DNA of 38,763 nucleotides, taken from contig CAJWHT010000033.1 in the NCBI GenBank assembly GCA_913041495.1, positions 1 through 38,763 on the forward strand. Reading direction: 5' to 3'. Below are positions 13,026 through 32,147 of this stretch, piece by piece. The notes under the pieces were generated by a model. The model was not told where the DNA came from. It made no database searches and saw only the letters and a list, made by a program, of their open reading frames with translations. The stretch comes from an uncultured Desulfobacteraceae bacterium. Its GTDB lineage: Bacteria > Desulfobacterota > Desulfobacteria > Desulfobacterales > Desulfobacteraceae. The position numbers were made by a program, and so were the translations under genes. Position 1 is the stretch's first letter. Each line of letters starts with the position of its first letter.

Positions 13026-13101
13026 GCGCCCGTGGTGTAGCGGATATCACGTCAGCCTCCGAAGCTGAAGATCGCTGGTTCGATTCCAGCCGGGCGCACC
13101 A
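13026..13101 (+). tRNA. tRNA-Arg(CCG)
   Basis: A complete 76-nt cloverleaf is visible. The acceptor stem is GCGCCCG (13026-13032) with CGGGCGC (13091-13097). The anticodon stem TCAGC/GCTGA encloses the loop CTCCGAA, giving anticodon CCG for arginine. The T arm is GCTGG-TTCGATT-CCAGC, and the 3' CCA is encoded. It sits between folC and the glycosyltransferase gene on the same strand. I saw no repeat of its 3' end elsewhere in the window. Confidence 0.97.
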
Positions 13102-31070: not shown

Positions 31071-31784
31071 CTAATTTGAGACCTCTTTCAGCTGTTTCCT
31101 ACTCTCTATAATCAACAATTTAAGCTTTTGGCAAACATCGTCTAAAGGCATGGCATCCGTTAATTGGCTATTCTTTATCGGAGAATCTTTGTTCATTTTT
31201 TTTGCAAATTCTGGGATTGCTTGATGTTCAAATGCTTTATTAAAAAACTCAGCGGTGTACATTGGCCCAATATACTCACAATTGTTTTTAAAAGGTTTTA
31301 TAATTCGTAAGAGTATAGAAGAAAGATCCAGCGTAAATTCAAGGCAAATAGTTGCAACGTCTTCTTTTGGAACCTCTACTATCTCTATATTATCACGTCC
31401 ATCTATCCTGACAAAATCACAAGCAACATAAAAGCGACCTTCTACCCACATGTTTATAATCGGTTTCCCATCATGTGTAATTGCATTTCTGCTCTTTTTG
31501 ATAAAGTCAATATGCCTTACGTCATTTAGCGATGACCAACGCACTGGATCTCCAGTAAGAACTGGTAATATGTCCTTCATAGTTTGAACAAGCGAAGAAA
31601 ATGCTGCAAAACGGTAATTTAATTCACGTCCGTGTCCAGCTGTTGACTCTTTTTCTATCTCGAAAAGCCTTAAAGCGTCTGTACATACTTCAAGAACTTG
31701 CGATAAACGATACTCGAATTCATTAATGCTGTTCTTAAGAAAATGCGCAAACTGTGACTTTCTATCTTTGGGTGCTATGCTCAC
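31071..31784 (-). CDS. HEPN-like protein, possible ribonuclease (stand-alone)
   Basis: A 237-residue protein in an AT-rich interval unlike the surrounding genes. It is largely helical, and near residues 99-104 has RNAITH, the R-x4-H motif (with Asn after Arg) that forms the active site of many HEPN ribonucleases. A short beta-rich segment (WVEGRFYVACDFVRIDG) follows and then more helices. No nucleotidyltransferase (MNT) partner is adjacent. The frame extends to TTG 31802, but GTG 31784 follows a GGGGAG site, so GTG is preferred. HEPN proteins often act in toxin-antitoxin or phage-defence systems; this role is inferred from motif and context only, and the family is not identified. Confidence 0.65.
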   Translation of the reverse strand: MSIAPKDRKSQFAHFLKNSINEFEYRLSQVLEVCTDALRLFEIEKESTAGHGRELNYRFAAFSSLVQTMKDILPVLTGDPVRWSSLNDVRHIDFIKKSRNAITHDGKPIINMWVEGRFYVACDFVRIDGRDNIEIVEVPKEDVATICLEFTLDLSSILLRIIKPFKNNCEYIGPMYTAEFFNKAFEHQAIPEFAKKMNKDSPIKNSQLTDAMPLDDVCQKLKLLIIESRKQLKEVSN

Positions 31785-31970
31785 AAATCTTTGTCTCCCC
31801 AAATACGAGTTTGCAAAGTGTACTGATCAACAAAGTTTTTTTATCAATACTTTTTAAAGTGTTAAAATATCACATCCTCCAAAACACAAGGATCTTCTTT
31901 ATAGATATAAGATATTCTTTAAGTATGCAAAAAACAACGTCTGATCCCGTATCCTCCAATGCAAACCAGG

Positions 31971-32147
31971 AGGGCCAGGCAGCCGGTGCCGTGGAGGCCC
32001 GGAGCGGCGTGAGATTACGCGGGGCGTCACGGACAGACAGACCCGTGAATCTCCGCTACTTCGGCGATCACGACGATTGCCGAAGTTTTAGTGGAGGGTC
32101 CCGCGGGGCCGGCTGCCGGGTTGGAACTACCTCACTAATCAGGCCCT
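31971..32147. ncRNA. Structured GC-rich element, candidate non-coding RNA or folded repeat
   Basis: A 177-nt GC-rich block lies in AT-rich intergenic DNA. By eye it folds into one closed structure. The outer stem is AGGGCC/GGCCCT (31971-31976 with 32142-32147). The main helix is 31978-31986 with 32109-32117 (9 bp), 31989-31994 with 32101-32106 and 31996-32000 with 32096-32100. A branch pairs 32003-32006 and 32011-32016 with 32048-32057 and carries the hairpins 32017-32027 and 32028-32047. A further hairpin spans 32058-32086 (8-bp stem). More than 50 bp pair in all. No recognised RNA family (6S, SRP, RNase P, tmRNA, group II, attC, retron) matched. Transcription strand and function are unknown. 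An open frame runs through but has no ribosome binding site and an unlikely protein. Confidence 0.5.

Follow-up and report, generated by a model that had tools for sequence, protein, structure and literature searches.

A solitary copy of an undescribed structured element, probably mobile and with putative CsrA-type hairpins, in a Desulfobacteraceae genome

The DNA analysed here (hereafter the window) is the whole 38,763-nt stretch of contig CAJWHT010000033.1 (assembly GCA_913041495.1) from an uncultured member of the Desulfobacteraceae. In a gap between two of its ORFs lies a block with a GC content of 67% (31961–32131), against 32.5% and 35% in the adjoining 200 bases on either side (Table 1). 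An earlier, sequence-only reading had placed this block at 31971–32147 and described it as a folded structure that might be a non-coding RNA, a folded mobile repeat, or part of a larger accessory element. The GC contrast agrees with a sharply bounded block, but the limits shift: the start then proposed lies 10 bases inside the conserved element, and the end 16 bases beyond it. As that reading held, the neighbouring genes do not account for the block, and no coding gene explains the element. A search for tRNA and tmRNA genes returned, in the whole window, only a tRNA at 13026. Consensus promoter scanning of the window gave one weak plus-strand match 93 bases upstream (31841–31868) and two downstream, with 0.8 expected, and a terminator scan found none; such scans are weak evidence either way.

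Table 1. Features of the element and its surroundings, in window coordinates.
Feature	Coordinates	Strand	Remarks
Left neighbour, 243-aa protein	31071..31802	-	ORF; no Pfam match at E 0.01
Whole conserved element	31961..32131	+	Family consensus of 168 model positions; R2 match 146.9 bits, E 3e-32, model 1-168 (high by construction)
Basal helix P1	31974-31987 with 32108-32121	+	Pairs mapped from alignment A3; two-sided changes at 12/13 pairs, 104 copies (helices 1, 2)
Helix P2	31990-32000 with 32096-32105	+	Two-sided changes at 10/10 pairs; 95.5% of cells paired (helix 3)
Three-way junction	32004..32092, closed by 32004-32005/32091-32092	+	Conserved single-stranded stretch at about 32087-32090
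Hairpin 1, holding GAGATT/AATCTC	32007..32056	+	Two-sided changes at 14/14 pairs (helices 5-9)
Loop 1, ACGGAC, CsrA-type A(N)GGA motif	32029..32034	+	Column entropy of loop G, G, A: 0.14, 0, 0
Hairpin 2, the 8-bp hairpin of the sequence-only reading	32058..32086	+	Two-sided changes at 10/11 pairs (helix 10)
Loop 2, ACGAC, degenerate in window copy; A(N)GGAC in family	32070..32074	+	
Private 3' flank with GGCCCT half-stem, outside family	32132..32147	+	R2 ends at 32131
Right neighbour, small ORF, 79 aa	32424..32663	+	No Pfam match at E 0.01

The claim that the block folds, which an energy no better than that of shuffled sequence would have refuted, is borne out: the plus strand of 31971–32147 reaches a minimum energy of -106.4 kcal/mol, better than all 200 dinucleotide shuffles, which average -72.3 (sd 4.5; z -7.6), and the minus strand reaches -81.6 kcal/mol (z -3.5), matched by 1 of 200. 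Of the parts drawn by eye, the main helix, the branch with GAGATT/AATCTC, and the long hairpin form in the minimum-energy structure and are supported by covariation among homologues. The GAGATT/AATCTC helix, which had been drawn in a three-way branch with two hairpins, carries in that structure one hairpin with a small apical stem. The proposed outer stem AGGGCC/GGCCCT (31971–31976 with 32142–32147) forms in the fold of the window copy and is private to it; in the family consensus, positions 31974–31976 pair with 32119–32121 and not with the GGCCCT half-stem. When the 177 bases were used as a blastn query, 19 places were found in the window's genome (the query's own included); besides that one there are 18, of which 14 break off at query base 151.

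The block belongs to a family of structured elements without an Rfam match, of which several genomes in a single bacterial family hold tens of copies. We built a covariance model (R1) from 26 copies out of 28 matches, omitting one with an insert (L004) and one cut by a contig end (L026), and searched also with a broader model (R2); the window copy (L001) is among the sequences of both, so that its scores are high by construction, and both match it at the same place. At E 1e-13 or better, R1 finds 21 full-length copies in the window's genome (G000) and 36 in a congener (G011). Within the bacterial family it matches 19 of 86 genomes (G000 included), spread over 8 of 14 genera; in a phylum sample of 395 genomes its matches are confined to G000 and one genome of another family, with two weak matches (G430). 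On an order sample R2 matched 20 of 389 genomes, all of the same family and three of them new (G029, G080, G081), while one genome (G032) was matched by the first R1 family search and by R2 and not by a repeat R1 search. A one-contig genome (G014) holds at least 32 copies. Of 104 copies, 90 have their nearest relative within their own genome, and amplification is therefore mostly lineage-specific. In G033, four loci (L160, L163, L165, L170) hold same-strand copies 210–302 bases apart, and one further pair is separated by 2.4 kb.

The searches for known counterparts were negative; the sequence-only reading, too, had matched the block to no RNA family. The element had no match when the whole window was searched at gathering score, and cmscan of 18 related loci with E limits of 10 or 5 gave four sub-threshold matches, none of them on elements; TwoAYGGAY, CsrB, RsmZ, and HEARO were among the families whose covariance models did not match it. 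A possible likeness of the element's ends to GEMM (c-di-GMP) RNAs was likewise unsupported by Rfam. The plasmid and phage records searched contained no match, and a literature search that left subscription journals largely outside returned no earlier report of the element. Scanning a contig set with a sequence pattern fitted to the G000/G011 type only gave 16 stretches, nine of them in one Desulfobacterales assembly; the seven others do not continue the element. Two viral hits of the pattern are one unrelated sequence type. Orientation relative to neighbouring ORFs is even (27 ++, 25 -+, 23 +-, 23 --, counting simple ORFs of at least 120 aa, omitting five weak copies, and classing 98 of 110 counted copies). 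As the neighbours also differ, we rejected a riboswitch or leader of one gene type.

Compensatory change among homologues, which the sequence-only reading had named as a check on its stems, is extensive. In alignment A3 (104 matches at E 1e-9 or better from 94 source loci, with G033 represented by 5 of 20), 48 of 50 base pairs show two-sided change, and 93.2% of cells pair compared with 66.2% when partners are shuffled and 38–47% when they are slid, figures to be read in the knowledge that A3 was fitted to the model and so favours the structure. A plain MAFFT alignment of 26 copies from the two nearest genomes (A1) gives 95.4% paired against 85.1% shuffled and two-sided change at 32 of 50 pairs, the structure having been derived from A1 itself. 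Between the members of 27 mutual nearest copy pairs, differences keep pairing in 72 double and 63 single cases and break it in 62 (54 single, 8 double), with five unpaired in both. G-U cells outnumber A-C cells in A3 by 450 to 45, which identifies the window's plus strand as the constrained one. The data thus support a structured, RNA-like repeat with a strand-specific fold. Strand-specific covariation, dispersed and lineage-amplified copies, and the want of an Rfam match together agree with the earlier choice of a non-coding RNA, a folded mobile repeat, or an accessory element.

Within this fold, both hairpins have a nearly invariant A(N)GGA loop on varying stems. Of 104 copies, 102 have A(N)GGA in the region of hairpin 1, 95 in hairpin 2, and 94 in both, compared with means of 36.9 (hairpin 1) and 13.3 (hairpin 2) after shuffling each hairpin. 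Among 126 copies folded singly, 101 have at least two hairpin loops with GGA, 21 have one, and four have none; in most, the hairpins are capped by AGGAC or ANGGAC on quite different stem sequences. Entropy in the GGA columns of the loops lies between 0 and 0.49 bits, against mostly 1–2 bits in neighbouring stem columns; strong conservation is also seen in the basal AGGC...GCC.GGGT, at the base of hairpin 1, in the pairs that close the two loops, and at single bases of the junction. According to a 2020 review, the CsrB repeat is CAGGA(U/A/C)G, RsmE complexes show an ANGGAN loop, and dual-site bridging by CsrA joins sites 10–63 nt apart (PMC7652899). Among the 104 copies, 44 have the exact CAGGA(U/A/C)G in hairpin 1 and 65 have it in hairpin 2. 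All 94 two-motif copies have a GGA-to-GGA spacing (27–51 nt, median 38) inside the bridging range given in the review (PMC7652899), while the hairpin stems are longer than those of most SELEX CsrA ligands it describes and most loops have five, not six, bases. In the RMfam paper, TwoAYGGAY and Bacillaceae-1 were matched to the CsrA motif by like reasoning (PMC4333381). We infer that the copies present putative CsrA-type paired hairpins to which CsrA may bind, since loops that stay fixed while their stems vary freely are most economically explained by recognition by a CsrA-like protein.

The window copy departs from this pattern, with A(N)GGA in hairpin 1 only; its second loop reads ACGAC, as it does in three G000 relatives, one G011 copy, and one G072 copy. 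The single copy in G004 has a hairpin 1 without GGA. Of the 20 rows from G000, 14 retain loop 2 (one of the 20 being cut off before it), as do 13 of 15 from G011 and 68 of 69 elsewhere, which makes 81 of 84 rows outside G000. Losses in loop 2 fit relaxed selection where csrA has been lost; these losses are few and related.

The distribution of csrA bears directly on such a reading. Neither csrA (by profile; best tblastn E 0.26) nor fliW was found in the window's genome, which is 99.18% complete in 328 contigs, although 21 full-length element copies are there. Among the family's element-bearing genomes, 13 of 19 have a csrA match and six do not, and element and csrA show no association (13/19 vs 37/67 element-free genomes, Fisher p 0.43; with the three genomes added by the order search, 15/22 vs 35/64, p 0.32). 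All five of those 19 genomes that are assembled in six contigs or fewer (G004, G008, G014, G026, G033) have csrA, and in the clade with the element csrA adjoins fliW. In G105, an assembly of about 1270 contigs, fliW is present and csrA is unmatched, perhaps owing to a contig break; this case may counsel caution for absence calls in fragmented assemblies.

A second line of evidence concerns the DNA that carries the element. In G014 it is part of a longer repeat in 20 fetched loci, and nine copies in which both ends were found delimit an insertion sequence of 1451–1458 bp, with exact 10-bp target duplications in seven of the nine and none in the other two. Its transposase combines PF13808 (DDE_Tnp_1_assoc) with PF01609 (DDE_Tnp_1), an arrangement from which we take the carrier to be of the ISAs1 family. 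The element lies between one end, with its terminal repeat, and the transposase gene, its own 3' end pointing outward (e.g., L095:241-1698), and a G011 locus (C447; L245:140-1527) is arranged likewise, its transposase sharing 84% identity with that of G014. More widely, 12 of 152 copies (five genomes, the 12 not being independent) have an ISAs1-type end no more than 90 nt away on their 3' side, compared with 1 of 1216 control windows, 1156 of which were full length, the end pattern having been written after such ends were seen. Matches to the G014 transposase were confined in the first locus set to the G014 loci and L190, and among 20 further loci to L245, with weak or partial matches in L242, L237, and L246. 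In six G035 loci (L179, L180, L185, L186, L187, L189) the 3' end always falls at an ISAs1-type end and the 5' end of the shared sequence differs between copies.

ISAs1-type insertion sequences thus carry the element in some lineages, as seen in a minority of the copies examined. A match to an insertion sequence had been named by the sequence-only reading as a result that would count against it; the link is real in that minority but not for the window copy, whose locus has neither a match to the G014 transposase nor an ISAs1-type end. Inspection by eye of the solitary G000 copies revealed no evident terminal inverted repeats or target duplications; the 10-bp duplications are seen only around the full G014 insertion sequence. 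The element is likely mobile, and the block in the window is a solitary copy of this undescribed structured element.

Where elements neighbour each other within 6 kb, they tend to stand as inverted pairs with 3' ends outward. The arrangement (-,+) is seen in 14 of 23 pairs (p 3e-4 vs 1 in 4) and in 11 of 12 pairs of G000 and G011 (p 2e-6), and adding G081 C380 (-,+) and G084 C926 (+,+) makes it 15 of 25 (p 2e-4); the count was entered by hand, and some partners are weak, truncated, or cut by contig ends. Pairs in G026 and G033 are mostly tandem, and since 14 G033 copies lay outside the fetched set, tandem neighbours there may be missed. Inverted outward pairs stand on contigs C27, C35, C180, and C196 of G000 and on C104, C116, C121, C203, C224, C287, and C502 of G011; some outward pairs bracket small genes (GIY-YIG, HNH, unknowns) and others no gene. 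On G011 C203 (L237:1460-3127), a DUF4277/DDE transposase gene has an outward-facing element on each side. On G000 C27 (L198:1933-3568), two elements and two small unknown ORFs lie between mnmG and a gene that we take to be radical-SAM-like. That gene stands just upstream of mnmG in 15 of 18 congeners (one by a 36-residue match at a contig end) and not in G011, G008, and G005; at mnmG, none of the 18 congeners was found to have either of the elements or either of the small ORFs. Possible toxin-antitoxin pairs, Xre/RES-like and HigBA-like by eye, lie beside elements at L124:2869-4025 (G026) and L005:1754-2386 (G000).

Like the CsrB, CsrC, and RsmX/Y/Z sRNAs, which have been described mainly in Gammaproteobacteria, the element has GGA in hairpin loops, more than one site per RNA, and, in many copies, the exact CAGGA(U/A/C)G. 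Unlike them, it has two sites rather than many, in one long fold with a three-way junction, and is not one gene but many dispersed copies in Desulfobacterales hosts, CsrA being only its putative ligand. Multiple GGA loops are present in 94 of 104 copies, csrA was not found in the 328 contigs of the window's genome, and we do not class the element as a member of that group. Like REP, BIME, and ERIC repeats and MITEs, the element is intergenic, dispersed, palindromic, and lineage-specific. It shares its many dispersed intergenic copies with MITEs and other non-autonomous elements in particular, but is longer than REPs, with a branched, strand-specific fold and nearly invariant loops. HEARO, the omega-RNA of IscB, is a structured, multi-copy RNA of a mobile element. 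The element is likewise structured and multi-copy, though without an Rfam match, and the IscB N-terminal domain (PF14239) was found in 0 of 10 element-bearing genomes but also in 0 of 14 controls. Among ISAs1-family elements, the carriers in G014 and at G011 L245 fit by their transposase and differ in having a structured element of about 168 nt between end and transposase. TwoAYGGAY (RF01731) and Bacillaceae-1 (RF01690) also have GGA-loop hairpins and are suspected CsrA ligands outside Gammaproteobacteria, but cmscan gave no match between them and the element; TwoAYGGAY is listed for human gut, gamma-Proteobacteria, and Clostridiales (PMC2864571).

Taken together, we tentatively favour a mobile structured RNA that acts like a two-site CsrA decoy and is spread by transposition, a reading that we consider quite possible and hold with reserve, chiefly on account of the csrA that the window's genome appears to lack. 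Specifically, RNA transcribed from the plus strand would present two CsrA-type hairpins at a spacing that one CsrA dimer could bridge, and so might serve as a two-site decoy or anchor that owes its spread to transposition and has no single encoding locus. The target protein is apparently missing from the window's genome and the window copy has lost one of the two sites; this copy is therefore probably a relic or half-site. A more far-reaching version, which we regard as possible but rather doubtful, is a transposon-borne sponge: a CsrA-binding RNA with two sites, carried through the clade by insertion sequences and by short units derived from them. Mobile DNA, not one sRNA gene, would then set CsrA availability in a clade where, with csrA beside fliW, FliW and not an sRNA would be the expected antagonist.

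The chief competitor, unlikely in our estimation yet deserving of serious weight, is that the element is mobile DNA only, its fold and loops serving transposition—as a folded single strand or as a site for transposase or a host factor—with any RNA incidental and the solitary copies being short relics or non-autonomous units of ISAs1-type elements. The dispersed copies, their even orientation, and their lineage-specific amplification are all as this would have it, as are the placement inside insertion-sequence ends, the outward-facing pairs, and the persistence of the element in genomes without a csrA match. DDE transposases, however, act on double-stranded ends, and transposition through such ends leaves the covariation, the strand asymmetry, and the fixed loops unexplained; the loops also vary in length (AGGAC or ANGGAC), as CsrA ligands allow. 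IS10 RNA-OUT has a placement comparable to that of a further candidate, an insertion sequence's own regulatory RNA, independent of CsrA, which would be made outward near the end to control the transposase or neighbouring transcription. The elements of G014 and G011 L245, lying between terminal repeat and transposase gene and pointing away from the gene, would suit such an RNA. Against it, the G014 transposase matches few loci, and scans of the G014 element found neither promoter nor terminator, leaving this account improbable.

The outward pairs (14 of 23 overall, 11 of 12 in G000 and G011), some of them around small accessory genes, and the mnmG block, which none of the 18 congeners was found to have (15 of them with the next conserved gene in that place), invite comparison with attC: the element would be a folded site for recombination at the borders of small gene cassettes. 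We think this very improbable: several pairs hold no gene, those of G026 and G033 are mostly tandem, and for the paired units neither ends nor target duplications could be located. The attC core-site motif is RYYYAAC/GTTRRRY, and by eye the element's ends show no fit to it. Finally, a 168-codon GTG frame overlaps the element, but copy lengths that vary base by base (163 to 172) led us to reject a coding gene and, with the fold energy and the covariation, make a chance fold or spurious coding sequence scarcely credible.

Should the loops bind CsrA, the favoured reading—a mobile, two-site decoy—would place a Csr-type RNA outside its classical hosts, carried by mobile DNA. In Geobacter sulfurreducens, no CsrB/C-type RNA has reportedly been characterized (PMC13407953), and whether FliW and RNA antagonists of CsrA act jointly in one species was a question that the 2020 review left open (PMC7652899). 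With CsrA-binding loops, this question of coexistence would become testable in the present clade; if the loops do not bind CsrA, their fixation through transposition would pose a puzzle about how folded elements move.
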